A stretch of DNA of 64,000 bases from a virus, in IMG/VR virus record IMGVR_UViG_3300042695_000360, positions 17,294-81,293 of that record, one strand, 5' to 3'. Under the pieces are notes generated by a model. That model worked only from the letters and a program-made list of their open reading frames with translations. It ran no database searches and had not been told where the DNA came from. Positions 10,601 to 55,579 of this stretch are shown here, in pieces. Position 1 is the first letter of the stretch. The number at the start of each line of letters is the position of its first letter. Made by a program: the position numbers and the translations under genes.

Positions 10601-10987
10601 TGTGTCGTGCATCCACAATACTCGCATTTTAGCTTTACTGATAATCCTGTCGTATAGATTCATAGACATGAATGGTACACTGCGATTATCGTTTAATCTC
10701 GGATAATCTTTCGGATCAGTGAATGGAATAATTGTGCGACTGCTTATAACAATATCAAACTCGTGATTGTTAGCTAGATCTGTAAGTGGCCTATAAGTTA
10801 CTGTGTCGTACTTGCCAGGTACTGCATGATCAATGTTACAGTTATTGAACACTGTAACATCAAATCCAATTTGTGCGAGTTCCCTACTCATTAGGATAAC
10901 AGCACTTTCGCTGCCTCCTAGTCCTTGTTTGAATACCGTAGTTCCGTCGTATGGGATGCCGATAATATCTATAATAGCTAGCTTCAT
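7619..10987 (-). CDS. Four-domain glycosyltransferase/FkbM methyltransferase
   Basis: A 1122-residue fusion. Residues 1-400 are a GT4-like GT-B fold, with GLGGSES near 22-28 and the E-x7-E catalytic pair E297/E305 in PETYGISSMESLCYN. Residues 440-640 are a GT2 domain (VDDAS 477-481, DGDD 537-540). Residues 690-890 are a second GT-A domain with DSD at 755-757. Residues 930-1122 are an FkbM-type SAM methyltransferase (YDIGA, MDVQGAE 1051-1057). The likely product is a modified glycan on virion, DNA or host envelope. It has a sigma70-type promoter at 10995. Such a one-chain assembly line is unusual. Confidence 0.85.
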   Translation of the reverse strand: MKLAIIDIIGIPYDGTTVFKQGLGGSESAVILMSRELAQIGFDVTVFNNCNIDHAVPGKYDTVTYRPLTDLANNHEFDIVISSRTIIPFTDPKDYPRLNDNRSVPFMSMNLYDRIISKAKMRVLWMHDTFCLGDNLIEELAVADRITDIFTLSDFHLTYVTNCHHGRRRNFEVLKRKMFITRNGVRIYNREVDIKAKDKNLFVYNASVTKGMIPLVKMIWPHVKRHIPEAKLKVIGGYYRFSTNAEPDQQEKDWREMAADPQLAAQGIEFTGVIPQKEIADILTTANFMLYPAAFPETYGISSMESLCYNTPIITCRFGALEEIAVAGACYLIDYAIEPNGLFPDISVPTQVEQFVKTTVEAYRNPYLHQQKQYYCNIVKDIAGWDSVALQWKQHFYKKTGHYLSSSDYRAVSKINHRLHKIYNRKFHNTVELEDYKPGTEQPIVVVSTFYNCKNYIARCINSIATQDYDNYRCILVDDASTDNTLEALYTALSAYPAHIRAKFEVIENQNNVGAVKNQIDTFRSLQDPNAIVMILDGDDSLVNDNTVFSYYNNVYDGTTEFTYGSCWSMVDNIPLISQPYPEHVKNSKEYRNHHFNWILPYTHLRTFKQQLIDGLDDSLFQDDTGAWYKAGGDGSIFYALIENADPSKVKCLQDIVYNYNDVNPLNDYKVNAIEQNVAAKSIIKKMNPSKKKILIAIPTARNIEPETFKSIYDLIIPEGYEATFQYFYGYNIDQVRNLIADWVVKGFDYLFSVDSDISFPPNTLSKLLSHDKDVVSGLYIQRKPGLHILEIYEHNQNGGVSNMPYEKLKGRPLVEIAGCGFGCALVKAEVMCEIGYPQFKYYSAIDHRNTVSEDVDFCRKARDKGFKIWADPSVLCSHTGSFTFNVDNAITAAPDVTPFNIQDRLRELGSQRLIPRNHVDYLAKLKNEGFEPKVIYDIGACVLHWTNEAQRIWDRAKYVVFEAMDSSEFLYKERNLQYHMGVLSDQSGKEVDFYQNDVHPGGNSYYKENEEVNPETVNYFNETHRRRLKTVTLDAVRRLKNFPPPDMIKMDVQGAELDVLKGAVETLSTVKHVILELQVVEYNKGAPLKDDVIAYMDTQGFDCLGIFSNNGPDGDYHFVRR

Positions 10988-39701: not shown

Positions 39702-40025
39702 TTAAATGGAGAAGCTACTGCCGCAGCCGCAAGTGGATTGAGCGTTTGGATTTTTTATTGAAAAGCTAGATCCGGAAAGATCTTCTTTGTAATCAATTTC
39801 GGCACCTTGTAGATACTGCATACTCATAGCATCTACTACGACTTTAAATTCACCAATTGGAAATTGGAAATCATCTTCGTTAAATTCTTCATCAAAGGTA
39901 AATCCGTAACTAAATCCAGAACAGCCGCCACCTTGTACAAAGGTTCTTAAGGCAAGTTTTGGATTATTTTCCTCCATTAGGAGGTCTGTAATCTTTGTCT
40001 TAGCATTTGATGTTATGTTGATCAT
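39702..40025 (-). CDS. erpA: A-type Fe-S cluster carrier (ErpA/IscA family)
   Basis: 107 residues from ATG 40023-40025. The core ([20 protein letters not shown]) and tail ([16 protein letters not shown]) match ErpA almost exactly, including the three cluster ligands C35, C99 and C101. ErpA receives [2Fe-2S] or [4Fe-4S] clusters and passes them to target enzymes. The phage encodes several radical SAM enzymes a few kb away, which need such clusters. Divergent to it is the Cys-rich peptide gene. Family identity is firm. ErpA rather than IscA is favoured by the tail. Confidence 0.9.
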
Positions 40026-40039
40026 ACTACTATTTACAC

Positions 40040-40047
40040 TATAAATA
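40040..40047 (+). promoter_or_regulatory. Late promoter box (exact TATAAATA)
   Basis: Exact TATAAATA followed by TCC, 18 bp upstream of the Cys-rich peptide ATG, with GCAGGAGA as the ribosome site. It points away from the ErpA gene. Confidence 0.7.
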
Positions 40048-40065
40048 TCCAAGCAGGAGAAAAAC

Positions 40066-40230
40066 ATGGAACAATACATGGATGACTTTCAAAACTACAA
40101 ACGATTTACAGCTAAATGCAAATGCGGATGTCCTGCACACTGCAATCATAGTTGTACTGAATGCGAATACTGCCCGGACTGCGAATGTCCAGAGTGCATA
40201 GAATTAGATAATAGCAGAGGGTACAATTAA
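40066..40230 (+). CDS. 54-residue peptide with ten cysteines
   Basis: A short ORF with a good ribosome site (CAGGAG) and a late box. The N-terminal 17 residues ([17 protein letters not shown]) lack Cys. Residues 18-44 contain ten Cys and two His ([13 protein letters not shown], then [14 protein letters not shown]), and a short polar tail follows. The spacing CxCxC, CxxxCxxC, CxxCxCxxC could bind zinc or an Fe-S cluster, or be a leader-plus-core substrate for a modifying enzyme. The stop overlaps the start of the next gene (TAATG). Unknown family. Confidence 0.65.
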
Positions 40231-41172: not shown

Positions 41173-41754
41173 TTACTTGTAAAAAATGTGATTGCCGATT
41201 TTAGTGATACGTTCTCTCTTCCAGCCTGGATTGATATAATCACCGTGGAAGTACATGGCCTCTTTTAGGCTAGGAAGGCGAAATCCTTCTAGTAGAACTT
41301 TCTTAGCGACTTCTTCGCTTTCTTTAAAAGAAGCCTTGTTCACTGCCCTAGTTGGAACAGTCCTGTCACAGACCCAACTAAATTGGCATAGGACCTTTTC
41401 ATAGACAATGTTCTTTTGATAGATTGTCTTGCAGATATCGCTTGGATACTGCCCGCTTTCAGTTCTGTTTATTGTAACTTGTGCAACTGCAACCTTGCCC
41501 TCAAACGGCTGATTGCCTGCTTCATAATAGATGTTCTTGGCGAGACAAGCTAATTGTCTTTCGCGAACTTCTGTTGTAATTTGGGAACTATCTGTTACTT
41601 GATAATTAGATTGCTTGTTAGCAATGGCCCATTGTAATAGAGATACAGATCCATAAGCAGCTACAATCATCAACAATAATGTGATGATCTTCAACAAAGT
41701 CGAAGAAACTTGCACCTGTGTATCTTGATCCCTATCTAGCGTTAACTCAGTCAT
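41173..41754 (-). CDS. SleB-type cell wall hydrolase (endolysin) with N-terminal anchor
   Basis: 193 residues. An uncleaved signal-anchor-like segment at about 20-43 (LLKIITLLLMIVAAYGSVSL) precedes the SleB hydrolase domain. Motif residues include LAKNIYYEAGNQP with the catalytic Glu E78, VAQVTINR, SQYPxDICxTIY-like text and YFHGDYINPGW. The family cleaves peptidoglycan glycan strands. A signal-anchor endolysin would reach the periplasm by the Sec route. It has a sigma70-type promoter with three GGTAAAA-type motifs nearby. Confidence 0.8.
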   Translation of the reverse strand: MTELTLDRDQDTQVQVSSTLLKIITLLLMIVAAYGSVSLLQWAIANKQSNYQVTDSSQITTEVRERQLACLAKNIYYEAGNQPFEGKVAVAQVTINRTESGQYPSDICKTIYQKNIVYEKVLCQFSWVCDRTVPTRAVNKASFKESEEVAKKVLLEGFRLPSLKEAMYFHGDYINPGWKRERITKIGNHIFYK

Positions 41755-41853: not shown

Positions 41854-42405
41854 TTACTTAATGCCAATAAGCATAAATCTTGAGAACTTCCAAGTGGGGT
41901 ACTCAAAGTCTTTTTGGCCGCGGTACAGTAGGTTACTAACTGGATAAGTCCCGATGAACTCGTCTAAACTACTGCTGTGTATGTGGTGGTCTTCGTGCGG
42001 CATATTGTTGCCTTGAAGTACTACAGTGGTTCCTTTTGGGATACTGTTCCACCAATCCAAACTTTCGAAGTGTTCGGTGCTTGTATTTATAACCAAATCT
42101 GGGCCGTGCCAGTCCAGATCAAGTAGATTACAGTCCTGGGTTTTAGCTTTAAACTTCCAGTTATCTATAACCCAATTCTCGTTGATCATGTCCGCCACAG
42201 CTTCGCATTTTGGATCAACGTCGTAACTGCGTATCTTTCCAATCTGTATATTGCCTCGACTGTTTAATAGGAACGCTGTTACTCCATACCATCCGCCGTA
42301 GATCCAAATACTATCGACAGAATCAAAAAGTTTTTCTAATTCTTCGCAGAGCCAAATCTTACTTCCTATTTGACCGCTACTAAATGCATCCTTATTCACT
42401 ATCAT
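41854..42405 (-). CDS. Class I SAM-dependent methyltransferase-like protein
   Basis: 183 residues with a Rossmann-type layout: SIWIYGGWYGVTAFLL as the SAM-binding loop (motif I-like, IYGGWYG in place of the usual ExGxGxG), IRSYDVDPKCEAVADMI for the ribose-binding Asp, and HGPDLVINTSTEHF with a strand at 118-125. It is short for the family and lacks a clear substrate domain. It stands beside the radical SAM cluster with its own promoter region, divergent from the B12-type enzyme. The target is unknown. Confidence 0.65.
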   Translation of the reverse strand: MIVNKDAFSSGQIGSKIWLCEELEKLFDSVDSIWIYGGWYGVTAFLLNSRGNIQIGKIRSYDVDPKCEAVADMINENWVIDNWKFKAKTQDCNLLDLDWHGPDLVINTSTEHFESLDWWNSIPKGTTVVLQGNNMPHEDHHIHSSSLDEFIGTYPVSNLLYRGQKDFEYPTWKFSRFMLIGIK

Positions 42406-42501
42406 ACTTTAATTTCAATATTTTTTTCAAGACTAGGAACCCTAAATATAGCATCTATTTACTGAGAGATCAAATGTTGTTAATATAACAGTATTTTATT
42501 T

Positions 42502-42510
42502 AATAAATAC
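42502..42510 (+). promoter_or_regulatory. Late-type promoter box (AATAAATAC)
   Basis: AATAAATAC, the same variant as at 6527 and 37275, only 4 bp upstream of the ATG of the B12-type radical SAM gene. The leader would be very short. Confidence 0.45.
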
Positions 42511-42514
42511 CGCT

Positions 42515-44479
42515 ATGCCTGATAGATCTATACAATTACTAACTGATGTTTTTCCAAATTCAACTACAAATCATGGTAATTTGAACAATCCCGATATAAT
42601 ACTAGTCCAGGCACCTGGATGGGGAGTGCAAACAGCTCCGCTTTCTTTAGCATCACTTTCAGCCTATGTTCGGCAGAAAGGATACAAGATTTTACCATTA
42701 GATTTAAATGTTGAATTTTTTGCTATTAGACCTGAGAAATTTTCCATAATGTGGGACATAGATCAATCTCAGTGGTTTTGGGAATCTAAAGACTGCGTTA
42801 ATGACCTGTTAACCGAATACAAAAAAGAAATTGATGACTTTGTCGAGTTAGTGGTGTCGACTAATACACCATTAGTTGGATTTAGTTTATACAACACTTC
42901 AATGCATACTTCGATGCATCTTATCAAACTGCTCAAAGCACGTAAGCCTGAGCTAAAGATTATTGTCGGTGGTCCTCATGCCCACCGATATCTAGCTGGT
43001 AATGTTTTGGCAAAAAATCCGTTAATAGATGCAGTCGCCCAGGCTGAGGGAGAAGAAACATTAGTAGACATAATTGAGCGTGTTCGAAAAAATCAATCAT
43101 TGCTCGATTGCCCTGGATTGTTAGTGTTTAAAGACGGAGCAGTACATGCTACTCCAACAAGGCCAATGATTCCAAAAATCGACACTCTTCCGATACCCCA
43201 CTACAGTGATTTTTCATTAGCTCCTTACCTATCCCCAACACGATTACCAATGGCGTCTAGTCGAGGGTGTCCTAATAAATGTATATTCTGTAATGAGCAA
43301 CCTTATTGGGAATCATATCGATTTCGGTCTGCAGAAAGCATGATTGAAGAAGTTAAGTACCAATTAAAATTATATCCTGAAATTGACTTTATTGACTTTC
43401 AAGATAGTTTATGTAACGGGAAGATAAGCGCAATTGAAAAGTTTGCCGAATACCTCATTGAAAATAAAATTAAAATACAATGGGCCGGACAGGCAGTTAT
43501 TAGAAAAGAAATGACCGAAGAACTGATGATAAAATTAAAACAGTCCGGATGTGTGGTCATGGCCTACGGATTAGAAACTCCAAACCCTACACTTATGAGG
43601 AGTGTAGGAAAGTTATTATCAAAAGGTGCCGATATTGATAAAATTGCTGAATCTCATGCAAGGACCGGACTTAATGCAGTTTACAATGTCATGTTTGGGT
43701 TACCGGGAGAAACTGAAGAAGATTCATTAATGGTCTTAGAGTTTTTAAGACGTAATTCAAAAAATAAATTATATGTAAATCCCAGTGCAGCATTTTGCGG
43801 ATTTGCTAACGGAACTCCTGGATGGGAGAACGCAGAAAAATTCGGTATTGACAAAACACTCGGCGGAACTTTTTGGAAAAGTGTAGATGGTAATAACACA
43901 TTCCTAGTTCGATTAAAAAGATTTGAAGATTTTTGTCGATTAGTTTCCGACTTAGGTATAAAAACCACTTATCCGTCGACATATCTTCTCAATAGAAATC
44001 AAGTCATTGCCCAATATTATATTGCAATAGGTCAACCAGAAAAAGCAATATACTATTACACAGAATGGGTTAAAGATCATCCCGAAGATCAAATAGCTAA
44101 AAAGTTTTTATTCGAATATTCAGGTTTCTTAAAAAGTACCCCAAGTTCAAATGTTTATGCAATTAGCCGGCATTCGGATGAGAATTGGTTAAATGGTGTT
44201 GCTAGAAATTGGGGGCCTGCAATATTATTTTCACATGTTCCTTACATTTTAGAAGAATTAACAGTTGGTAAAATTGTACAGTTTTCAGATCTTCAAACAA
44301 GAAAAATAATTAGAGTTGAAGATAATTTTGAAAATGATTGTATTGTAATACACCTCGACGGCACTCATTTAGATGGAGATCAAGTTGGTTGGCCAAAACT
44401 AATAACTGTTTTAGAGGAGCCTAGCAAAGTTATCCCTATTAAGATAGTTAATTACACAGAAATAGATTTTAAAAAATGA
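42515..44479 (+). CDS. B12-binding-type radical SAM protein
   Basis: 654 residues. Residues 25-215 form a cobalamin-binding-like Rossmann domain (DIILVQAPGWGVQTAPLSLA, FSLYNTSMHTSMHL, IIVGGPHAH), without the canonical DxHxxG, as in many members of this family. Residues 245-470 are a radical SAM barrel with SRGCPNKCIFC (C252, C256, C259) and YGLETPNPTLM. A TPR-like helical stretch and a C-terminal beta domain follow. Typical reactions are methylations or rearrangements of unreactive carbon. The next gene overlaps by 4 nt. Substrate unknown. Confidence 0.82.
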   Translation: MPDRSIQLLTDVFPNSTTNHGNLNNPDIILVQAPGWGVQTAPLSLASLSAYVRQKGYKILPLDLNVEFFAIRPEKFSIMWDIDQSQWFWESKDCVNDLLTEYKKEIDDFVELVVSTNTPLVGFSLYNTSMHTSMHLIKLLKARKPELKIIVGGPHAHRYLAGNVLAKNPLIDAVAQAEGEETLVDIIERVRKNQSLLDCPGLLVFKDGAVHATPTRPMIPKIDTLPIPHYSDFSLAPYLSPTRLPMASSRGCPNKCIFCNEQPYWESYRFRSAESMIEEVKYQLKLYPEIDFIDFQDSLCNGKISAIEKFAEYLIENKIKIQWAGQAVIRKEMTEELMIKLKQSGCVVMAYGLETPNPTLMRSVGKLLSKGADIDKIAESHARTGLNAVYNVMFGLPGETEEDSLMVLEFLRRNSKNKLYVNPSAAFCGFANGTPGWENAEKFGIDKTLGGTFWKSVDGNNTFLVRLKRFEDFCRLVSDLGIKTTYPSTYLLNRNQVIAQYYIAIGQPEKAIYYYTEWVKDHPEDQIAKKFLFEYSGFLKSTPSSNVYAISRHSDENWLNGVARNWGPAILFSHVPYILEELTVGKIVQFSDLQTRKIIRVEDNFENDCIVIHLDGTHLDGDQVGWPKLITVLEEPSKVIPIKIVNYTEIDFKK

Positions 44480-45258
44480 AAAGTTTTTTAAATCAATATA
44501 ATGTTATATCTGAAGATATACCAGGGTCCTTACAATTTCCCAGTGCATTAGTATGGGACTCGTTATTAGGTTATCAAACCGAAAATAAAGTTGTGCGTAA
44601 TTTTTTAGAAATAGGTGTATTACATGGAAAGTCTGCAATGCTAAGTGGGCTATATGCACAGGCCAACAACACACAGCAGGTGATTGTAGATCCCGGTGAA
44701 TGGATGGACACAACTTATTCAAATTTACTATCAAAGATTGAGGGATTAAATCTAAGATTAATAAATGATTATTCTAACAGTTTGGTGCATTTTCATTATT
44801 CTATTTTTCAAGAACATTCTCGCGATTATTCATGGTTTCATATTGATGGCGATCATAGTTATGCACAATGCTATAAAGATTTAATTTTAGCTGATCATTT
44901 TTTGTCTGACTATGGAGTTGTTATTGTTGATGATTTCTTTTCAACCATGTTTCCTCAGGTTACAGCTAGCACTTTTTCATATTTAGAAAAACATCCATTA
45001 AATTTAAAAATGTTTTTAGTTGGTCAATGTAATAAAGCATATCTATGCAGACCGCCAGCATTTGATTTTTATAAAACGTTTTGCATAGATGTATTATCTA
45101 AAGATATGAAAGACCGAAAATATCCTGTAACTATAACTAAAACAACTTATCCTCAGGATTTTGATTGTTACGGGTATCAACCCATAGGATGGACTGATGA
45201 CAGAATGGAGTTTCGTGGTCCGGACTGGGATAGAACTAATTTTATAAAATATACCTAA
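44476..45258 (+). CDS. Class I SAM methyltransferase (Methyltransf_24-like)
   Basis: 260 residues. FLEIGVLHGKSAMLSGLYAQ is the SAM-binding loop, IVDPGEW holds the ribose ligand, and SWFHIDGDHSYAQCYKDLIL, VVIVDDFF is the DGDHxY signature of this subgroup, often found among sugar or cephalosporin-type methyltransferases. The start overlaps the B12-type radical SAM stop (ATGA), so both are co-translated. A step in the same modification pathway is likely; the acceptor is unknown. Confidence 0.75.
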   Translation: MKSFLNQYNVISEDIPGSLQFPSALVWDSLLGYQTENKVVRNFLEIGVLHGKSAMLSGLYAQANNTQQVIVDPGEWMDTTYSNLLSKIEGLNLRLINDYSNSLVHFHYSIFQEHSRDYSWFHIDGDHSYAQCYKDLILADHFLSDYGVVIVDDFFSTMFPQVTASTFSYLEKHPLNLKMFLVGQCNKAYLCRPPAFDFYKTFCIDVLSKDMKDRKYPVTITKTTYPQDFDCYGYQPIGWTDDRMEFRGPDWDRTNFIKYT

Positions 45259-45261
45259 CAG

Positions 45262-46497
45262 TTAATTTTTCCACCACGGCAAATATTTTTCTGTATTGTG
45301 ATTTCGATAAGCATCCATCTTTTTTATTATCGAAACACTGTTTTTAAAATTTATATCTGACTCAGGTGTTCCGATTAAAAATGTAATCATTGCACTCAAT
45401 ATGTTAGCCTTTTCTTTAACTGCATCTTTTTCAAGTAGTTCTCTATTGTTTTCAAACCAGGTTGCAATTTCTTGATACACTGTATTTTTATAAGCTGTTG
45501 GTAAATTACTCGGGGATGCATAGCTTGGATCGTAGATATAATTTATGTGAGGAAAGTTTAAAATATTCTTTCCTTCCAACCTCACAATATAATCTAACAA
45601 TTCTGTAAATTTATGTGTATTAAAAATAGAAAACACAGTGTGAAACTCGATACCAATATTTTCGTTTTCATTCGAATATTGAACTATGCTATCAATATTA
45701 TCTTTAACAATGTTCCATTTTCCAGGATATCTAATATATTCGTACATATCAGCAACAGCATCAATACTTACTTTAATAGTCATAGTCTTAAAATGGCTCC
45801 AGATGTCAAACCATTTTGACGGTGTCACAGTTAAATTTGTATGTATAGATAAGTCAACCTGTTTAGATAAACCTGAACTAATTAGTTCTTTACAAAATGT
45901 ATAAAAATCGTTGTTGATTAATGGTTCACCACCGGTTACTAATATCTGCACTAATCCGTCAGTCTTTACTAGGTCAAGGATATGTTTAATTTGATCATAG
46001 TTCCATTGAGCTTTATAATCACTTTCTTTTTCACCCCATGGTTTAATGTTGAGGAATTTAAATTCTTTTATTAGTTGATCGCTAGCTCCCGGGGTACACA
46101 TCTTGCATTGTAGATTACACTTATTCGACCAACTTAAATCTAAGTAATTTACATCAACAGATTCTAACTTGCCCGTATGCATTTCAGTGTTTGTTATAAT
46201 ATCTTCAATCGGCCATCTCTTTACAAACCAATTTCTAACACTTTCACCCCCATTGTCCTCAACATTATAACAATGCTGGCACTCGGCCACCCGCTCGCCG
46301 TCTATCATTTTCTTTCTTATATTTTTTAATTGATCAATATTGTAAAATTCAATCAAACTTGTTATCTCATTTATTTTTACAAACTTGCCATCTTTCTTTA
46401 ATCTTCCTGCATTAGTAGAATTACAACAAAGACGCATATTGCCATCAGTGTGTGTAGAAAAATGATTCCATGCTAACGGGCAATATGTCTTAGTCAT
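45262..46497 (-). CDS. Radical SAM protein with N-terminal twitch/SPASM-like domain (1)
   Basis: 411 residues from ATG 46495-46497; an ATG 12 nt upstream is possible but lacks a ribosome site. Residues 5-80 hold the auxiliary-cluster pattern CPLAWNHFSTHTDGNMRLCC and CQHC. The radical SAM motif CNLQCKMC (C127, C131, C134) comes after it. In ordinary SPASM enzymes the auxiliary domain follows the radical domain. VTGGEPL continues the SAM-binding features. It is one of three such proteins in tandem. Peptide, protein or glycan may be the substrate. Confidence 0.78.
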   Translation of the reverse strand: MTKTYCPLAWNHFSTHTDGNMRLCCNSTNAGRLKKDGKFVKINEITSLIEFYNIDQLKNIRKKMIDGERVAECQHCYNVEDNGGESVRNWFVKRWPIEDIITNTEMHTGKLESVDVNYLDLSWSNKCNLQCKMCTPGASDQLIKEFKFLNIKPWGEKESDYKAQWNYDQIKHILDLVKTDGLVQILVTGGEPLINNDFYTFCKELISSGLSKQVDLSIHTNLTVTPSKWFDIWSHFKTMTIKVSIDAVADMYEYIRYPGKWNIVKDNIDSIVQYSNENENIGIEFHTVFSIFNTHKFTELLDYIVRLEGKNILNFPHINYIYDPSYASPSNLPTAYKNTVYQEIATWFENNRELLEKDAVKEKANILSAMITFLIGTPESDINFKNSVSIIKKMDAYRNHNTEKYLPWWKN

Positions 46498-47839
46498 GTT
46501 TAAAAGCATCTTTCAAGTCTGGAATATAATCGCCGATTGAAATTCCTCTATGGTCATCAAGTATTTTAATTCTATGTTTGAATACCTTAAACAGTTTCGG
46601 ATTGTCAGGCTTGGTTAATTCATTTAATAACAAGTGTATCTTTCCATCTAGTCCGGGAAAATCTTTAATGACTTGACTATTTTCTAGATATGCTGTTAAT
46701 CTCTGTGTAGCTAAATCTTTCAGAGACTGTGGTAACATTGATATTTGTTGTTCCATCGGAAACATAATTAAGTTGATGTTATATGGCCACTCTTTAAAGT
46801 ATGGATGCACTTTGGCCTGTTCTTCTATAAAATATAATAGGCTATCTAAGTTAACAATGTTCAATGAGCTAACGGTGATATTATTCAATATCTTAACATT
46901 GCTGTGTTTCATATAACTCTTTGCTTCAATGTAATTCTTTGATACCTGGCGCCATTTACTAGGATATCTAGCATAATCGTTGACTTTATCAAACCCGTCA
47001 ATACTGGCAATGAGTTCAAACTTTTTAAACTTAGGCATTAACTCTAAAAAGTTTTTATTTAGGTTTGTAAAGTTACTGGACAAAAATACAGTAATATTTT
47101 TAGCATGATCATTGTCTACAACATATTGCAGTGCCTTTAACACAAATGGCATAATTGTAGGTTCACCACCGGCAAAACTTAATACTTCTAGTCCAGGTGC
47201 TAATTTTGTAAAACTTTCCCATATTTCTTCATTATCAGACCAATCGGGATGTTCGACATCTTTCCATGTTTTATTATGTTCAGTGATTCCAAACACACTG
47301 GAAATTTCAATAAATCTTCCATCTAATACTTTGATGCCACCAAATTTATTATTAAGTTCACCTAACTCTTTAGCAATCTGACTACTGTCGTAACTGTTGC
47401 ACATGACACATTTAAGGTTGCACAAATTACTAGGCTTTAATTCTAAATATGTTGGTTGGTGTAACACTTCGTAACTGTTGTTTATGCTGTTGGCAACTAT
47501 CTCTAATGTTTTTCGATTATTTTTATAATCTTCAATTGACCGTGTACGCATACTAACGTCGCCGTCTCGAATGCAACGCCTGCAAGCATCAGGAGTATCT
47601 CCTGTATGTAATTTTTTTCTTAAATCAACAAGGTGTTCGCTGTTCCACGCATCACTAAAATTATCCCCGGATAAAATGCTAATGATATCTCCGTTCGGGT
47701 GTGTCATTGTTCCTACATAATTACAACACGGTTTAAGGTGGCCAGCGGGATTAGAACTTAGTTGTGTAAAAGGATAAAAACAAAATGTCTCACTTTCAAT
47801 AATTTCTGTTCTTAATTGATCAATCTTGTCCATATTCAT
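46490..47839 (-). CDS. Radical SAM protein with N-terminal twitch/SPASM-like domain (2)
   Basis: 449 residues. An N-terminal auxiliary module (CFYPFTQLSSNPAGHLKPCC, then DAWNSEHLVDLRKKL and CRRC) precedes the radical SAM motif CNLKCVMC (C140, C144, C147) and FAGGEPT. This matches what I know as twitch-domain radical SAM proteins, common in large marine phages. The start overlaps the end of the 981-residue gene by 20 nt and the stop overlaps the next gene, so the three are translated as a unit. Confidence 0.78.
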   Translation of the reverse strand: MNMDKIDQLRTEIIESETFCFYPFTQLSSNPAGHLKPCCNYVGTMTHPNGDIISILSGDNFSDAWNSEHLVDLRKKLHTGDTPDACRRCIRDGDVSMRTRSIEDYKNNRKTLEIVANSINNSYEVLHQPTYLELKPSNLCNLKCVMCNSYDSSQIAKELGELNNKFGGIKVLDGRFIEISSVFGITEHNKTWKDVEHPDWSDNEEIWESFTKLAPGLEVLSFAGGEPTIMPFVLKALQYVVDNDHAKNITVFLSSNFTNLNKNFLELMPKFKKFELIASIDGFDKVNDYARYPSKWRQVSKNYIEAKSYMKHSNVKILNNITVSSLNIVNLDSLLYFIEEQAKVHPYFKEWPYNINLIMFPMEQQISMLPQSLKDLATQRLTAYLENSQVIKDFPGLDGKIHLLLNELTKPDNPKLFKVFKHRIKILDDHRGISIGDYIPDLKDAFKHD

Positions 47840-50765
47840 TATTCCTTGTTGCTTCTAACACTAATTTCATTTCTGGTATGATTTCATAAGTATTCTCACC
47901 TCTTAACTTATCCAATTGTTCCGTCACTGTTACAAATTTCTTTGCTGATGTTAAATCAAATGGTTTTTTTAATTCATGTATGATATGTGTTAAAAGATGA
48001 TCTATGCTTGTATTATATGTTTCGTTGTGCTCTTTGACAAAAGTTTCTAATTTAATTACAGTCTCTGCACGATAATCATCGGGTAGAATACTAACATGAT
48101 AATGTGAAGGATGTTCTAACAAATTGATGAAGAAATTATTGTAATTAATAAATTTGGTTTTAGGATGTTGACGTATAACTCCTATTGAAATCAAATGTTT
48201 AATAATTTCAGGAAATCTGCCAACATTCCAAGCACCTACAGTAATACCCGGGCGTATGATAGCATTATCTAATGTCATCAATTCTTTTAGATTTGACTCA
48301 ACCTTAGACCATACAGTGCCGGCTCGAATGAGTTCTGCACGTTCTCCAACTTCATCGATACTGGGCCATATTTCTAATTTGCCAAAGTTCCATCGCCGCC
48401 AGTAGTCAATAACATTTTTCTTATTATAAGATAACACTGATGCATTTGTGTTATATGATAGTTTAACATCAAATCGTTGTTTTTCTACCAACATTTCTAA
48501 AATTTGCCAGTGTTCAGGCATGAGTAGAGGTTCGCCTCCAGCAAAGTAAATTCTTTCCACATGGTTAATTTGATCTTTTAGAAAATCAAAGTTATTCTTA
48601 TCATCTACTGATTCGATGCTCCATATTTTTTCTTGATCAGTGAGGCCTAATTTTTTAGCATCCGGCACCCATGCTGAACTGTAACGTGGTCCGCAACTAC
48701 GACATTTAAAATTGCAAAGATTACTAAAACGGAAATCCCAATACTTCAACTCCATAGTAGTGCATGTTCCGTCTGCTAGTGTAATTTCTGGAATTTTTTT
48801 TACTACCTCTGGAAAGTCTCTATTGTGATAGAAACGACCACTTTCACCAGTGACCCGTTCTCTATCAAAACATTTACGGCATATTTCGGGCTCTTTGCCC
48901 CCTATCATATCTTTTCTTAAAGATTTCATATTGCCGCTGTTCCAAATTTCTTCAATGCTCTGATGTGTTAGATCACCAGCAAAATAATTATGTACAGAGG
49001 TTAGGCAACACGGAATTACTTTTCCACTAGGTTCAAATGCAAGATGCATCCAGGGCACTGCACATATTGTGGTTGTATTTGTTGCAACTGCAACTACATC
49101 TTCTTTTTTGACAATTTTAATAGGTTTGTAATCGAAGGCAGTTATTTTTTTTGAGTTGAACATTGTGAGTAACCAGGACCTGTTATTTATTTGTTGTAAT
49201 GTTGGTGTATTTTTATTTGCATCAAAGAACTCTTTAGCAGAATGTACAGCAGATAATGCATAATTACCGAACGGCCTATCTACTCCCAGAGTCTCCCATG
49301 CTGCCAATCTATCAATAGCTTCAGCATTATCGGGATCTTGTGCAATGGTATTGCATAACTTAATTGTTTCCCTAAATGCACTTCGCCATGTGGCAAACTC
49401 GTCTGTGTTAAATGTTGTAATGTTACTGACTTTATCGAAGACTTTTAATTTAGGAACAATAGTCGTCAGTAGGTCTAATGTTTTCCAAACTTTGATTTTG
49501 CCAAATGCCCGCTTAGGGAATAATTTAACGCCACCGTAACCATATTCTAAATCATTAACAGGATTCTTACTGTGCCAGACGTATGTACAGTCTCTATCAA
49601 ATATCTCTGGTTGGTAGTCGAACTGCCAGTCATCGACTAAGTAAGCATCACCGTCGACTACATAGAACATGTCAGTCTTGGATAACTTAGCCGCTGCCTT
49701 ATGTGCCTCAAAGATACCAGTAACACCATCCACACGTTTGGCATGTGGTGCTTTTTCTAAAACACGCTGCCAATTCTCTTCTGCATTAGATTCATGGTAA
49801 CTAATAAAGATTACATCCAGTGTTTCGGCAATCAGAGGAGTAACTGTTCCTATTTCTTTAACACCCACAATCTCTGCACTGGGAGTAATTTTCAAAGCCC
49901 AAATCTTCTCCCCGTTTATTTCTTTGTCTAGATACCATATATGTTCATAGGCTAGATCGTGCCAAGGAATGTCGTAATCTAAATCAAAACGCATTTCTGG
50001 TAGGCTAGGATTTTGTTCAATTTTAAACTCAGGACTAACTGTGCCTAACCATTCCCATTTAGAAGTTTTTTTACGTTTAGGTTCAAACTTAATCAACCAA
50101 GTACCTGGTTTTGGACTGTAGTTAGGATCCAGCTCAAGTGCAGTAACGTAATCCAGAAACCAAAATGGCGGATAACATTCGTTGACATCGATGAGTAGTT
50201 TAGGAAGATCAGGATTCCATGTAACTCGCATTTCAGGCATAACGTATCCCATGTCTTTCTCGCCTTTAACGTTGGCGCCAGGCACCTCACAAGTAAATGC
50301 CCATATTTTATCTTCTAAAGGATTGACTCTAGGATCAATGTACCAAACTAACGTATAGTCAGCATCGTCTTGATTATATACATAACTTTCTATAGGATTA
50401 AATTCAAATGTAATAGAACTTGCTATTGCAGAATTCTTTTTCCAGATAGGCGTTTTTGCCCACATGTGATTCTTTGGTACTTCTATTTCATGTGTTTCAT
50501 ATCCAGCATATGGGTGCCACCCATCTTTAAACAGTTTGGCTACCCACTCACCTTTGTATGTCCAAACTAGACATTTTCTTGTTTTAGGCACATCATTTAC
50601 AAAGTTCAAGACACTAGAATGTCTTGCATAAGGATTTATCACTAAGAATTCAGTATCGCCTTCACCTAAGTTGTATAATTGTTGGTCATAATAAAACTCA
50701 TCCCCTCCCCAGGGGATTTCTTTGATTAGGTCTGTATTGATTTTGGGGTATTGATCTAGAAGCAT
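47820..50765 (-). CDS. Glycosyltransferase-like and radical SAM fusion protein (3)
   Basis: 981 residues. Residues 1-310 have three beta repeats with WAxTxE and TPLI-type strands. Residues 315-540 are a GT-A-like domain (DVIFISYHESNAEENWQRVL, KRVDGVTGIFEAHKAAA, MFYVVDGDAYLVDDW with a DGD metal motif at 371-373). Residues 565-640 form the auxiliary-cluster module (CAVPWMHLAFEPSGKVIPCC, CRKC). Residues 670-981 form the radical SAM barrel (CNFKCRSC, C684, C688, C691; YFAGGEPLL). Fusion of a sugar-transfer fold to a radical enzyme suggests one pathway. Substrate unknown. Confidence 0.75.
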   Translation of the reverse strand: MLLDQYPKINTDLIKEIPWGGDEFYYDQQLYNLGEGDTEFLVINPYARHSSVLNFVNDVPKTRKCLVWTYKGEWVAKLFKDGWHPYAGYETHEIEVPKNHMWAKTPIWKKNSAIASSITFEFNPIESYVYNQDDADYTLVWYIDPRVNPLEDKIWAFTCEVPGANVKGEKDMGYVMPEMRVTWNPDLPKLLIDVNECYPPFWFLDYVTALELDPNYSPKPGTWLIKFEPKRKKTSKWEWLGTVSPEFKIEQNPSLPEMRFDLDYDIPWHDLAYEHIWYLDKEINGEKIWALKITPSAEIVGVKEIGTVTPLIAETLDVIFISYHESNAEENWQRVLEKAPHAKRVDGVTGIFEAHKAAAKLSKTDMFYVVDGDAYLVDDWQFDYQPEIFDRDCTYVWHSKNPVNDLEYGYGGVKLFPKRAFGKIKVWKTLDLLTTIVPKLKVFDKVSNITTFNTDEFATWRSAFRETIKLCNTIAQDPDNAEAIDRLAAWETLGVDRPFGNYALSAVHSAKEFFDANKNTPTLQQINNRSWLLTMFNSKKITAFDYKPIKIVKKEDVVAVATNTTTICAVPWMHLAFEPSGKVIPCCLTSVHNYFAGDLTHQSIEEIWNSGNMKSLRKDMIGGKEPEICRKCFDRERVTGESGRFYHNRDFPEVVKKIPEITLADGTCTTMELKYWDFRFSNLCNFKCRSCGPRYSSAWVPDAKKLGLTDQEKIWSIESVDDKNNFDFLKDQINHVERIYFAGGEPLLMPEHWQILEMLVEKQRFDVKLSYNTNASVLSYNKKNVIDYWRRWNFGKLEIWPSIDEVGERAELIRAGTVWSKVESNLKELMTLDNAIIRPGITVGAWNVGRFPEIIKHLISIGVIRQHPKTKFINYNNFFINLLEHPSHYHVSILPDDYRAETVIKLETFVKEHNETYNTSIDHLLTHIIHELKKPFDLTSAKKFVTVTEQLDKLRGENTYEIIPEMKLVLEATRNNEYGQD

Positions 50766-50804: not shown

Positions 50805-52334
50805 TTAGAAACTCTTAGGCAGCGACACAATGCTGGTCAGTACTGTACCCGAATTGTCAAATCCTATAAATTTACGTGTCACTGTTCCATCAAGTATAGC
50901 GCCGGAGTCTAACTGGTAATACCTAGGCGGAGTATCAACATTCGAATAATAATGGAATGCTCTAGTTAGATTTTTTAGTGTTGTATCAAAATCACTGTTA
51001 AGATCCGATATGTCCCTCAACTGATTTAATGAAACATTAACGTTTCCGTTGCCGTCGTCATTGACAATGAACATAGATCCTACAGAAGATTCTAAACCAA
51101 AAGATGTTTCGTAGTCCAATCCTGGTGTACTCTTTACCTTATACAGTGGCAGGCCGTCACTATTTGTGGCGCTACTGAGATGCTGTACAGGTCCAGTAGA
51201 CGATAACGGGAATCTATATACAGTGGCCCATCCACTATACGGATAGTCTGTAGCTGTGGCAAGATAGCCCAATGTGCTGGTTGCTGTAAAGACTTGACCA
51301 CCAGCACCATATAAATCTGTGCCATCTCCACCTGTACCTACACCTATGGTAAGAACTTTAACTTGATCAATCTTGTCGTAACTCATTCCTATAACACTGT
51401 TATACGGTGCAGCAGGACTTACCCAATAACCCAAGGATTCAAATCTCGAAAGGTCAATAGCTACATTAACTATGTTAGTGACTGTGACTACAGAGTTAAT
51501 TCCAACACCGCCTTCAGATGCAATAGTTACATTGTTAGTATAGGTTCCGGGTGTGTTGTTTAGCTCTAGCACACGCAATCTTACAGTAAAGGTATTGTTG
51601 GCTTTATCAACGATGCTCCATCCTGGGTTGTTGTTTCCAAACGATGTAGTAAAATCTAATAGTACATCTGGCTGATCAATTAGATCATATACGGGCATAA
51701 TTTCAAAACTTTGACGTACTTGTTCTCCTAGCTGTGTTGCCGTGGTAGTTGCAGTGATGGGACTTACACGCATACTAAAGGTACGTTCTACATTTTGAAA
51801 TGTAGGTATCTTATAGTTTACAGCATCAAAATCAGAAACAATATTTAAGAAATTAGAATATTGACCTACTTCAGTTCCATAATAAGAGATAATAAAGTTT
51901 TGACTGCCGCCCGGAGGGATAACAAAGGAACTGGTAGTATGAAATATTGGAAAGACTCCGTTAGGAAAAGATCGTTTAATACCATTACCATCAGTGTCTC
52001 CTACGGTCAAAGGAGTATTTCCGTCATTATGTAGGGTAAGAGTCTGTCGTGTAGCAGTACTGTACCATTTTAACAAATCTGCCCAGTTAGTTGGATTTTG
52101 CAAAACAAGATCTGTGGTACTGGTCGAAGCTGGTGGAAATACAAAGGTAGGAACGGGATTAGGTGTTACTCGTAATATCTTTGTTTGAGTAACAGCCGTA
52201 GGTGCCCTCTTAACTGGTTCCCATAGATATTTCAGTGTCTCTAATGTTGGAACTGGGCCTTTAACAGCGCCACCAGATATTCTAAATCCGAGTGAACTGG
52301 TAATTCTTAGATTAGTATCAAAATTATTTGCCAT
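50805..52334 (-). CDS. Ig-like virion structural protein
   Basis: 509 residues, largely beta. ANNFDTNLRITSSLGFRISG, a segment with LTLHNDGNTPLTVGDTDGNG and SFVIPPGGSQNFIISYYGTE (choice-of-anchor or ASH-like Ig features), and FSMRVSPITAT. The C-terminal part (ALDYETSFGLESSVGSMFIV) leads to DGTVTRKFIGFDNSG. The pattern recurs in structural proteins of marine T4-like phages, probably tail or baseplate-associated. It is the first gene of a three-gene structural set with 52338 and 53178. Confidence 0.6.
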   Translation of the reverse strand: MANNFDTNLRITSSLGFRISGGAVKGPVPTLETLKYLWEPVKRAPTAVTQTKILRVTPNPVPTFVFPPASTSTTDLVLQNPTNWADLLKWYSTATRQTLTLHNDGNTPLTVGDTDGNGIKRSFPNGVFPIFHTTSSFVIPPGGSQNFIISYYGTEVGQYSNFLNIVSDFDAVNYKIPTFQNVERTFSMRVSPITATTTATQLGEQVRQSFEIMPVYDLIDQPDVLLDFTTSFGNNNPGWSIVDKANNTFTVRLRVLELNNTPGTYTNNVTIASEGGVGINSVVTVTNIVNVAIDLSRFESLGYWVSPAAPYNSVIGMSYDKIDQVKVLTIGVGTGGDGTDLYGAGGQVFTATSTLGYLATATDYPYSGWATVYRFPLSSTGPVQHLSSATNSDGLPLYKVKSTPGLDYETSFGLESSVGSMFIVNDDGNGNVNVSLNQLRDISDLNSDFDTTLKNLTRAFHYYSNVDTPPRYYQLDSGAILDGTVTRKFIGFDNSGTVLTSIVSLPKSF

Positions 52335-52337
52335 GAC

Positions 52338-53162
52338 TTATTTGTTTTTCCTATATAAGGATATCCACGATTTTCTTGCATATCTTTTACTTACAACAGC
52401 ACCAGTTACAGTCATTGCCGCTAACCAAACAACACTATTTGGTATAGATAATTTATTAAATCTGTTACCGCGTAACATATTTGTAGCATTAGTAAATGAC
52501 CATTCTACATATTTAGATGTCCACCTTGTTCCGTTTTTAAACAATAAAGGAAGAATGATTTTTGATCCAATAACCTGATAACCGCGTCGAAATGTTTCAC
52601 CTAACATTGTATCATGTAAAGCATTTTCGCACCACTTTACTAATTCCATTTTTTCAGATAAAGACCAAGTGCCAGCGGTAGTCAACGCTGTTGCTACTAC
52701 GCAAGCACCGGCGCTGCCGCTGCCGCTGCCGCTGGCCGAGCAACTACTACTGTTGCTGTCAGCACAAGAAACACCACCGCCACCACCGCCGTCACCTGTA
52801 GGTGTGTAAGGAACTTCTGGGTCTGGCTGCGATGTTCCAGAAATACGCACTGTTGTGGTCTCTGATGTAGTAGTTGAACTAGCGTCCGGGTACTGACCAG
52901 ACACTGTTAAAACACTGAGATAGTCACCTGTGACCAGTGTGGCCGAAGTATGGAATGTGGTAAATTCAGAACTGTATGTACGTGGGGGCAACACCAACGG
53001 ACTAGCCAGGGTAATGGGCGTTGTGGTAATGTCACTGCCCTCTCCAAATACTGTGAGATTCGCGTGTTGCAGTATCTTAGTGTTGTCAATTGTAAAAGAG
53101 AATGTGGTAACAGTGATGGTGTTTGCACTGTTGTTGTATAGTTTAAAGTTTCCCGCTGCCAT
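52338..53162 (-). CDS. Structural protein with Gly/Ser-Cys linker and helical C-terminal domain
   Basis: 274 residues. An N-terminal Ig-like beta domain (residues 1-110), then a low-complexity linker GDGGGGGGVSCADSNSSSCS, ASGSGSGSAGA, and a C-terminal helical domain (CVVATALTTAGTWSLSEKME, KWCENALHDTMLGETFRRGY, QVIGSKIILPLL). The C-terminal part resembles the Cys-Phe-Ile-box type domain of bacterial surface proteins, recurrent in marine phages. A short basic tail follows. It lies 3 nt before the 509-residue gene. Function unknown; a tail assembly role is likely. Confidence 0.6.
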   Translation of the reverse strand: MAAGNFKLYNNSANTITVTTFSFTIDNTKILQHANLTVFGEGSDITTTPITLASPLVLPPRTYSSEFTTFHTSATLVTGDYLSVLTVSGQYPDASSTTTSETTTVRISGTSQPDPEVPYTPTGDGGGGGGVSCADSNSSSCSASGSGSGSAGACVVATALTTAGTWSLSEKMELVKWCENALHDTMLGETFRRGYQVIGSKIILPLLFKNGTRWTSKYVEWSFTNATNMLRGNRFNKLSIPNSVVWLAAMTVTGAVVSKRYARKSWISLYRKNK

Positions 53163-53177
53163 ATATGTTGTTCTCTT

Positions 53178-54005
53178 TTATAGTACGATGTTCTCAAAAT
53201 GGGTCTTGGGCGTGATGATAAAGCCAGGAGCCGTGGTATCTGTATAGGTTATGGTAAATTCCACACCCTTGCCGGTGTTAACGTCCTTTTGTGCTACCAT
53301 GCTGATCTGCAGGGTACCACTGGTCCAGTAGGTACTGGTAGTGGGCCAGGCTGTGTCGCGCCACTGTGTTCTGGTATATTTCCAGTTCTGGGTATCCTGT
53401 ATATAGAGTATAAATGCAGCCCACTCCTGATCTAGATCGTTGACCCCCGTGGTGTCATCGTAGAAACTGCTCCAAACAAACTCACCCCCAGTGTTAAAGA
53501 AATAGTGACCTAGCAGGCTAGTAGTCCAACTGGCCGTGACCACATGGCTGATTTCCCCAACCCATGATGTAGTTGTACTGGTACTAACACCCCCTCTATA
53601 AGGGCTTGTGGTCACAGCGCCTGTGCGATCTATAGTATTACCACCATCTGAGAAGTACTGGCTAGGATGGCAAGTGTACCGACGCACATCGTCCAAGAGC
53701 CAAAGAGCTCTGTAGTGTAGATCATTATGTGTGGCTGTGGAGACCAGGGTAGTGCCTGTTGTGGGGCCCACTGTTGATGTAGTGACGTTTAGTACGTGAA
53801 GATGTATTTGATTAATGTCAGCAATCAAGTTATGCCAACCCTGGGCTGTGACCCTGTTGCGATTGGTCACGGGCACACTGTTCAGCCAGGTCAACCCATA
53901 GCCATCTATGCCCGTGCCCAGAATTTCTTCCACATTGTTGTAGATGGTGTTGTAGTCGTCGATCTGGATTAGAGTCAATGGACTGGAATATAGTGGATAG
54001 GTCAT
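53178..54005 (-). CDS. Virion protein with polar beta fold
   Basis: 275 residues. An N-terminal helical part (TLIQIDDYNTIYNNVEEILG, TAQGWHNLIADINQIHLHVL) and a C-terminal beta domain (GHYFFNTGGEFVWSSFYDDT, DLDQEWAAFILYIQDTQNWK, LQISMVAQKDVNTGKGVEFT). This combination recurs beside the two preceding structural genes in marine phage genomes. The role is probably in the virion. Gene order (275, 274, 509 residues) suggests a conserved late operon. Codon use is more GC-rich than in the flanking fibre genes. Confidence 0.6.
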   Translation of the reverse strand: MTYPLYSSPLTLIQIDDYNTIYNNVEEILGTGIDGYGLTWLNSVPVTNRNRVTAQGWHNLIADINQIHLHVLNVTTSTVGPTTGTTLVSTATHNDLHYRALWLLDDVRRYTCHPSQYFSDGGNTIDRTGAVTTSPYRGGVSTSTTTSWVGEISHVVTASWTTSLLGHYFFNTGGEFVWSSFYDDTTGVNDLDQEWAAFILYIQDTQNWKYTRTQWRDTAWPTTSTYWTSGTLQISMVAQKDVNTGKGVEFTITYTDTTAPGFIITPKTHFENIVL

Positions 54006-54080
54006 AATGATGTTACAATAGTGTGATATTTATCCTTGATCTCGACATTGACAAATCAGCTTAGATTAAATACTAACATT

Positions 54081-54839
54081 ATGAAACGATACAAACATTC
54101 AGGTACCATGGGCGACATCATATATGCTCTGCCCATAATGCGTCACTTTGGCGGTGGAGAATTTTATCTACACCTCAATCAAGTTGACTGGATAGGTCAA
54201 CACTACTACGGTAGCCCCCCAAACCCATTCCATCAGGGTCGCATGACCCCAAAAGATCTAGACTTCATGCAGAGCTTTTTCCTGGCCCAGGACTACATCA
54301 CACGCTGTGATGCACTGGATCCCAAAGAGGAAATCACGCACAATTTGGATCTATTCAGACCCTTGTTCGTGGGTCACCCGGGCAACTATGTGGACTGCTA
54401 CGCAGAAGCATTCAAGATCCGAGAGCCGGGTCTGCGCACAATTTTACGCAATCAACCCTGGCTCACCGTGCCCAAGCCCACGCCCATTGCGGAAATAGTG
54501 GTCAACAGGTCCGCTCGTTGGAACAGTCCCGACAGTCTAACAGGTTGGACAGCCATTCGTGATCAAGCAGAAGATCGAGCTGTGTTTGTGGGTCTACCCG
54601 AAGAGCATCAAGAGTTCTGTAAGTTTGCCAACTGGGCCATACCCTATCATCCCACAGAGACCCTACTGGAGTTGGCTGAAGTCATTGCGGGTGCGGATCA
54701 GTTCGTGGGCAATCAAAGCCTAGGTTTGAGTCTGGCCATAGGACTGGGAGCGGACTGGGCCTGTGAACTACGCAGAGATCTACCACAGGAACGCAATGAA
54801 TGCTGGTTCCCGGATCATCCCCGCGGCGAATACTTTTAA
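54081..54839 (+). CDS. GT9-like glycosyltransferase (heptosyltransferase fold), copy 1
   Basis: 252 residues from ATG 54081 (MKRYKHSGTMGDIIYALPIM). The GDIIYALP motif is the N-terminal nucleotide-sugar strand of GT-B enzymes such as ADP-heptose:LPS heptosyltransferases. Later segments (AEIVVNRSARWNSPDSLTGW, EVIAGADQFVGNQSLGLSLA) match the C-terminal donor-binding half. A TTAAATAC late-like box lies upstream. A second copy follows 8 nt later. It may alter host lipopolysaccharide or glycosylate virion proteins. Confidence 0.72.
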   Translation: MKRYKHSGTMGDIIYALPIMRHFGGGEFYLHLNQVDWIGQHYYGSPPNPFHQGRMTPKDLDFMQSFFLAQDYITRCDALDPKEEITHNLDLFRPLFVGHPGNYVDCYAEAFKIREPGLRTILRNQPWLTVPKPTPIAEIVVNRSARWNSPDSLTGWTAIRDQAEDRAVFVGLPEEHQEFCKFANWAIPYHPTETLLELAEVIAGADQFVGNQSLGLSLAIGLGADWACELRRDLPQERNECWFPDHPRGEYF

Positions 54840-54847
54840 TCAACAAT

Positions 54848-55579
54848 ATGACAGCAAAATCTCCACGTAGACCCAAACTGGGCATAGTACAATCAAGAGG
54901 TCTAGGCGACATAGTGATAGCTCTGCCCATAGCTAAATTTTATCACGATCAAGGCTGGGATATTCTGTGGCCCATATGTACAGAATTCATCTCGCACTTT
55001 GAACACACAGTACCCTGGATCAAATGGATTCCAGTGCAGACAGACCCGGGCAGTTTCTTCTACGACCAACCCATGAAGGCCCTGAAGAACTTTCATTGTG
55101 ACGAGATCATCCCCCTGTATCAAGCACTGACGGGCCATAAATTCCACGAAGAACTGTACTTTCAACAGACCAAGTTTGATCAATACAAGTACATCAAAGC
55201 GGGCGTACCATTCTTAAACAAGTGGAAACTTAGCGAGTGTATTCAGCGTGATGCACAAAGAGAACAACGTCTATATGACAAGATCATTACCAATGAAAAA
55301 TACGCAGTAGTACATCTAGAAGGCAGCGATCACACGGCCAACTTCGATCCCAGTATAATACCCAGCGACTGGCAAACAGTGTATATCAAAGCGGAAACTG
55401 ACAGCATCTTCGACTGGCTAAAGATCATAGAAGGCGCAGAAAGTCTAGTAATGGTCGACAGTGTGTATAGTAATCTAGTTGATCAATTAAAGATCAAAAC
55501 GGACAAATACTTTATACCAAGAAGTCATGTGGGACTAACACCTGTACACGGTATGGACTGGACATGGATTAAGTTCTAA
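54848..55579 (+). CDS. GT9-like glycosyltransferase, copy 2
   Basis: 243 residues from ATG 54848 (MTAKSPRRPKLGIVQSRGLG). The GLGDIVIALPIAKFYHDQGW motif is the typical heptosyltransferase start. VVHLEGSDHTANFDPSII and IIEGAESLVMVDSVYSNL correspond to the C-terminal GT-B half. It is a divergent paralog of the gene 8 nt upstream, so the pair probably acts in sequence or as a heterodimer. Low similarity argues for an old duplication. Together with the GT domains elsewhere it supports a glycan-related programme. Confidence 0.72.
   Translation: MTAKSPRRPKLGIVQSRGLGDIVIALPIAKFYHDQGWDILWPICTEFISHFEHTVPWIKWIPVQTDPGSFFYDQPMKALKNFHCDEIIPLYQALTGHKFHEELYFQQTKFDQYKYIKAGVPFLNKWKLSECIQRDAQREQRLYDKIITNEKYAVVHLEGSDHTANFDPSIIPSDWQTVYIKAETDSIFDWLKIIEGAESLVMVDSVYSNLVDQLKIKTDKYFIPRSHVGLTPVHGMDWTWIKF

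Follow-up and report, generated by a model that had tools for sequence, protein, structure and literature searches.

The window analyzed here is a 64,000-nucleotide (nt) stretch of viral DNA, positions 17,294 to 81,293 of the 81,293-base IMG/VR virus record IMGVR_UViG_3300042695_000360, and its subject is a 9-kb gene cluster at window positions 41854-50765. We read this cluster, with somewhat better than even confidence, as a phage-borne, modular cassette for tailoring glycans, whose target is most likely a glycan of the envelope. The module's probable product is an unusual surface sugar chain bearing decorations, proposed because the set recurs in many large phages and, on bacterial chromosomes, next to genes for sugar synthesis. 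The envelope glycan is favored as the destination because of the bacterial islands and the neighbors of related genes in the isolated Vibrio phage K566. The observed basis comprises domains, folds, intact cysteines, a preferred gene order, co-occurrence and glycan-related neighbors. The original prediction, made from the letters of the stretch alone, had described four radical S-adenosylmethionine (SAM) enzymes, two methyltransferases and a fused glycosyltransferase within 9 kb. Families, folds and coordinates bear this out, and all six open reading frames (ORFs) are present at the following positions, the subfamily numbers (0, 2, 3, 6, 7 and 8 in this text) being defined in the present analysis by clustering.

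41854-42405, minus strand: MT1, a 183-residue protein of class I methyltransferase fold and a conserved part of the module (AlphaFold2 and Foldseek)
42515-44479, plus strand: B12-binding radical SAM protein, 654 residues, motif CPNKCIFC (PF02310, 54 bits; PF04055, 49.5 bits; CX3CX2C)
44476-45258, plus strand: Methyltransf_24 protein, 260 residues (PF13578, 46.8 bits)
45262-46509, minus strand: N_Twi radical SAM enzyme, subfamily 3, 415 residues (NF033640, 324 bits; cysteines)
46490-47839, minus strand: N_Twi radical SAM enzyme, subfamily 2, 449 residues (NF033640, 306 bits; cysteines)
47820-50765, minus strand: 981-residue fusion of repeat region, GT-A domain and N_Twi enzyme of subfamily 0 (NF033640, 353 bits at residues 565-967)
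49155-49832, minus strand: GT-A domain within the fusion, about residues 312-537, with DxD motif (alignment and model)
49866-50765, minus strand: N-terminal repeat region (REP) of the fusion (hidden Markov model matches in phage loci)

The genes form three blocks, read as transcription blocks, and not a single operon. The N_Twi trio on the minus strand and the B12/Methyltransf_24 pair on the plus strand are convergent, and MT1, on the minus strand, stands apart. The gene of the 449-residue protein overlaps each neighbor by 20 nt, and the start of the Methyltransf_24 gene overlaps the stop of the B12 gene by 4 nt. Because of the arrangement of the blocks, the co-translation predicted from these overlaps is supported inside the trio and inside the pair but not across blocks. 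Gene copies with 100% identity are found in further IMG/VR contigs, one of which has 207,813 bases.

All three N_Twi proteins score far above the curated cut-off of the NF033640 N_Twi_rSAM model (170 bits), and each contains both the radical SAM motif CX3CX2C and N-terminal auxiliary cysteines. As in that model, the auxiliary-cluster domain lies ahead of the radical SAM core, where it is matched by the SPASM-like PF13186 (for example, at residues 20-89 and 568-632). SPASM/Twitch peptide maturases have the opposite layout, with the auxiliary cluster domain C-terminal to the core. The model's name states no function, and the GT-A fusion, the ordered arrays and the linkage to MT1 are contributions of the present analysis. 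The mutual identity of the three proteins is 23-25%, and they are therefore not recent duplicates. The cluster-binding cysteines, on whose retention the original prediction partly depended, are intact in most homologs: C7, C26, C66 and C69 are invariant across 36 aligned sequences, CX3CX2C occurs in 311 of the 311 profile matches of at least 330 residues, and both cysteine sets occur in 306 of them, although the profile search itself favors an intact-motif outcome. The home-made N_Twi profile also picks up other radical SAM proteins, such as subfamily 6, which lacks the auxiliary cysteines; for this reason, N_Twi counts use a strict rule that requires an N-terminal profile match and both cysteine sets. 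The strict recount lowered several numbers, and the overall reading is unchanged.

The arrays have a preferred order. Among same-strand neighbors in the subfamilies obtained by clustering 544 profile matches at 40% identity, subfamily 0 precedes subfamily 2 in 8 non-redundant loci and subfamily 2 precedes subfamily 3 in 4, and neither order is ever reversed; the window trio runs 0, 2, 3. Subfamily 8 lies before 7 in 8 loci and after it in 2, and this 8-7 pair is common to phages and Bdellovibrionota contigs. Both cysteine sets are present in 194 of the 196 members of these five subfamilies. Adjacent same-strand strict N_Twi genes overlap or abut in 64 of 65 pairs (157 of 161 gaps with the loose profile).

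The fusion of a GT-A-like domain to a radical SAM enzyme, as originally proposed, is borne out by a domain model with a pLDDT of 90, by its structural matches and by the DxD motif. The best Foldseek matches in the PDB are the glycosyltransferases SunS, the PBCV-1 capsid enzyme, RmlT and ppGalNAc-T (E about 1e-4), with low TM-scores of 0.43 at most over the query. VIA-align gives a Z of 11.3 with B4GALNT1, and nucleotidyltransferases of the same superfamily rank close behind. In BFVD, the two top matches are uncharacterized uncultured-phage proteins, followed mostly by glycosyltransferases. All of the 35 sequences compared retain the D-x-D motif (D71, D73), E25, R44 and H55, and given fold and motif the domain is predicted to transfer a sugar. 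GT-A is joined to a full N_Twi enzyme in two divergent versions, of 981 and 642 residues, and the REP region precedes the GT-A domain in relatives too. A protein of 868 residues, in which the radical SAM core joined to GT-A lacks the auxiliary part, was rejected as an N_Twi fusion under the strict rule.

MT1 has no family match in Pfam, NCBIfam or PHROG. In its AlphaFold2 model (pLDDT 85), the protein folds like a class I methyltransferase, and Foldseek matches it to a BioC structure at E 3e-8. The usual class I motif at the loop after the first strand is GxGxG, and in MT1 this loop reads YGGWYG. The model indicates the Rossmann fold of class I methyltransferases, and SAM binding and methyl transfer are predicted. 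Searched by sequence against solved structures, the MT1 and GT-A profiles found no relative and one chance-level row only, and neither MT1 nor one GT-A relative has a match among 50,697 phage records.

Recurrence was followed across virus records in an MT1-seeded IMG/VR set, the best 80 of 101 stretches, with neighbors counted within 10 kb. Strict N_Twi genes are present at 46 of the 80 loci (50 by the loose profile), GT-A at 37 and a B12 radical SAM match at 26; after collapsing similar MT1 proteins, the counts are 28 (loose, 32), 23 and 17 of 54. The expectation that the genes occur as a set and not independently is thus upheld only in part, with exceptions weighed below. Pooled GT-A loci have a strict N_Twi gene in 91 of 94 cases and MT1 in 77 of 94, but these loci overlap and N_Twi served as the seed for some of them, so they are not independent. 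NF033640 is matched above its cut-off in 26 of 29 whole virus records. One 72,670-base record (G026, the record of locus L170) has 21 matches on both strands at E 0.001 or better, 11 of them above the cut-off. Among the 50,697 phage records, the three N_Twi queries matched 2, 3 and 15; apart from one marine single-cell virus record, these belong to Vibrio phages, and 13 of the 15 align over no more than about 60% of the query, with an identity of 21-22%. Contigs of metagenome-assembled genomes (MAGs) labeled Rickettsiales, Gammaproteobacteria and Neomarinimicrobiota (L200, L202, L212) carry phage-like MT1/GT-A/radical SAM arrays and could be of phage origin, placed in bacterial bins.

The exact B12/Methyltransf_24 pair was found only in contigs of the window phage's own species and is a species-level addition to the module. 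The B12 protein has two matches among the same phage records, both in Streptomyces phage SF3 at 23.5%.

The module is also found in bacterial chromosomes. A GTDB scan returned 79 loci, the best of them labeled Bdellovibrionales and relatives. N_Twi, MT1 and GT-A stand together in an island of G032, a Bdellovibrionia MAG, with serS on one side and gmhA further off at the other, and in an island of G036, labeled only 'bacterium', between EF-Tu and nusG. In G080, two GT2 genes, N_Twi, MT1, a radical SAM gene and GT-A are consecutive on a contig of 2.04 Mb. In G046 and G098, MT1 lies among GT2 genes with no N_Twi in the 18 kb examined; the MT1 proteins of these two genomes and of G080 are 36-43% identical to the window protein. 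Elsewhere, two glycosyltransferase genes (GT2 and GT2/GT7C) run straight into two N_Twi genes (L190), or an N_Twi pair is followed by a class V aminotransferase and a carbamoyltransferase (L187). Chromosomal islands and loci hold GT2, PMT_2-like and nucleotide-diphosphate (NDP)-sugar genes as well. Among 59 genomes from the phylum of G032, this genome included, N_Twi is present in 16; MT1 is present in 6, all inside those 16 (p=1.8e-4), and GT-A in 3, all inside the 6 with MT1 (p=6e-4). Without G032, MT1 is found in 5 of 58 genomes (p=6.6e-4), and p for GT-A is 6e-3. The co-occurrence of N_Twi, MT1 and GT-A in two differently sampled sets, together with the ordered and overlapping N_Twi subfamilies, supports the multistep pathway suggested at the outset. 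Paired small membrane-like proteins of about 160 and 300 residues recur in and beside the chromosomal islands (L267:1580-3029, L268:923-2285, L269:3634-5044, L272:2613-4062), and the two that were tested have no Pfam match.

Genes inside the phage arrays fall into 85 clusters, of which 81 representatives were scanned. Among the 25 listed of 51 matching families are NAD-dependent epimerase, UDP-glucose dehydrogenase, cytidylyltransferase/mannose-phosphate isomerase, carbamoyltransferase, DegT aminotransferase and FkbM methyltransferase, which speak for a glycan, as well as Asp/Arg hydroxylases and a fatty-acid desaturase. Phage K566 has two N_Twi genes above the NF033640 cut-off. Three further long matches fall short of it, and in one of them a stop interrupts the alignment. 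The K566 N_Twi genes are near two GT8 genes, LpxC and an annotated PagP.

Two further features flank the window cluster.

39702-40079, minus strand: ErpA-type iron-sulfur (Fe-S) cluster insertion protein (NF010147, 161 bits; cut-off 117)
50805-54005, minus strand: three co-directional genes (509, 274 and 275 residues; ORFs), 39 nt upstream of the fusion gene

ErpA sits 1.8 kb from MT1 and is probably a support gene for Fe-S enzymes. Of 100 phage loci, 29 have its cluster and 14 a cluster of IscU, whose representative scores 226 bits against a cut-off of 192. A cysteine-rich protein of 54 residues occurs near ErpA, not adjoining radical SAM genes, at L001:20536-20700 (minus strand) and at 4 other loci. 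The three upstream genes probably encode virion proteins, a role assigned by presumption; none of the three proteins has a PHROG match, and those of 509 and 275 residues have no Pfam match either. Near MT1, at 41173-41754 (minus strand), a 193-residue protein resembles SleB-type cell wall hydrolases by eye only, and its cluster is present in 22 of the 100 loci. A second glycan gene of the phage, at 7619-10987 (minus strand), encodes a 1122-residue protein with GT1, GT2 and FkbM methyltransferase domains. The overlapping genes at 54036-54839 and 54800-55579 (plus strand) encode proteins with no Pfam, NCBIfam or PHROG match; we take their N-terminal motif to be GT9-like, and the proteins are possibly heptosyltransferase-like. 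The window also contains tail-fibre genes.

For the glycan cassette, the following substrate, reactions, product location and benefit are proposed. The GT-A domain would transfer a sugar, and the fused N_Twi enzyme and then the two following ones would act in turn on its carbons by hydrogen abstraction, through oxidation, epimerization, deoxygenation or similar reactions. MT1 would cap the sugar with methyl groups, and so might the two products of the B12/Methyltransf_24 pair in this phage species. The product would most probably end on an envelope glycan of the infected host, where it would change the receptor or exclude rival phages. More tentatively, non-redundant N_Twi arrays that are fused to or overlap glycosyltransferases may represent an assembly-line-like remodeling of sugar carbons by a so far undescribed radical chemistry, with whole cassettes exchanged between large phages and Bdellovibrionota chromosomes; we regard this as possible but less than probable.

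In favor of the glycan reading, the other genes of the G032 and G036 islands have relatives in the 100 phage loci in 20 of 48 cases, compared with 0 of 84 for the island flanks and two further G032 regions, but this contrast is partly expected because most of the 84 comparison genes look like housekeeping genes. Several observations weigh against this reading. Pairs of subfamilies 0 and 2 are also seen without GT-A or MT1 in the stretch examined, and at L191 the 449- and 415-residue proteins have their nearest bacterial relatives side by side but in the opposite order. The window block contains no NDP-sugar enzyme. Within arrays, each listed NDP-sugar family is matched by 1 of 81 representatives and the Asp/Arg hydroxylases by 3 of 81, and several frequent clusters have no Pfam match above cut-off. 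The fatty-acid desaturase, PP-loop enzymes and 2-oxoglutarate (2OG) oxygenases found among the relatives would also fit a small molecule. The literature search found no assayed member of the module.

The original prediction had left the substrate as a glycan, a peptide or the virion. A glycan is now favored, and the virion is its main rival: the same enzymes would modify a protein of the tail or capsid whose gene lies immediately upstream. The 39 nt that separate the N_Twi trio from three co-directional, probably structural genes tell for this, as do the tail-fibre genes and GT-A structure matches that include the PBCV-1 capsid glycosyltransferase 2p72 and a glycosyltransferase of Mycobacterium phage Che8, all with low TM-scores; the short distance to those upstream genes also counts against an envelope glycan. 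However, a virion-only role is weakened by the chromosomal islands, where the N_Twi, MT1 and GT-A set stands in genomes (G032, G036, and G037 as well) in which no Gp23, the T4-type capsid protein, was found, other capsid types not having been searched for. The array of K566 carries LpxC and PagP, and the three upstream genes have no family match, their virion role being presumed; virion glycosylation appears rather unlikely. Modification of a peptide, like that of ribosomally synthesized and post-translationally modified peptides (RiPPs), by SPASM-type radical SAM enzymes is unlikely. The N-terminal domain is SPASM-like, the top Foldseek match of GT-A is a glycocin S-glycosyltransferase, and the B12 enzyme is recognized by the RiPP models ApyD and rSAM_ocin_1, but its 113 bits are far under their cut-offs of 282 and 750 bits. 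For TIGR03975, the RiPP maturation radical SAM C-methyltransferase model, the protein at 42515-44479 scores 112.9 against 281.85 bits. Moreover, N_Twi genes that overlap or abut leave no room between them for precursor genes. As candidate precursors, 26 small ORFs in gaps of at least 90 nt beside radical SAM genes were rejected, as none recurs in more than 2 loci; the rest of the genome was not searched.

Two other explanations fare worse. The set might be no single pathway, only unconnected accessory genes collected in a region of high variability. A strict N_Twi gene is missing within 10 kb at 34 of the 80 MT1 loci, which counts against a fixed module, the B12/Methyltransf_24 pair is confined to one species and array contents vary widely. 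Yet the unreversed subfamily order, the gene fusion and the co-occurrence in bacteria make a chance gathering very unlikely. Hypermodification of nucleotides or phage DNA bases is at least as improbable. 2OG oxygenases, PP-loop/QueC-like proteins and carbamoyltransferases are enzyme types of phage base-modification pathways, and all three are among the array and island genes. However, chromosomal islands and loci place the same enzymes with GT2, PMT_2-like and NDP-sugar genes, the known base-modification genes not having been searched for.

The suggestion that the cluster is an undescribed system needs qualifying because radical SAM arrays have already been reported in phages, in 2010, 2017 and 2020. 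In the accessible part of the 2010 paper, such arrays are termed highly unusual, and Campylobacter phages CP220 and CPt10 have interchangeable modules with five radical SAM genes each and, unlike the window, an amidinotransferase in each cluster (PMC2853527). Two CP220 genes annotated with nucleotide-diphospho-sugar transferase domains directly adjoin its radical SAM genes, which is a likeness to the present arrays. The CP220 proteins themselves were rejected as N_Twi enzymes because they score at most 31 bits (best NF033640 score, 30.9 bits), over the core only. Pelagimyophages have radical SAM cassettes in a hypervariable host-recognition region and likewise carry lipopolysaccharide glycosyltransferases, rfaE and UDP-glucose dehydrogenase, but the available text describes no N_Twi family, order, MT1 or GT-A fusion (PMC7029224). 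The T4-like ocean genome TARA_ERS488813_N000010 has 12 radical SAM genes and Fe-S assembly genes, comparable to ErpA in the window phage, but no glycan link was found in the portion of the article available (PMC5332604). The N_Twi/MT1/GT-A module is not named in the literature searched, partly accessible as above, which excluded most subscription journals and all bioRxiv preprints. As far as that literature goes, the module is new, and so are its order preference, the fusion and the shared chromosomal islands.

A large radical SAM family is hereby tied to glycosyltransferases via fusion, overlap, isolate context and chromosomal islands, which makes the question of its substrate testable. Bacteria and an isolated Vibrio phage have been identified in which the chemistry could be read out, and the enzymes concerned may act on unactivated sugar carbons.

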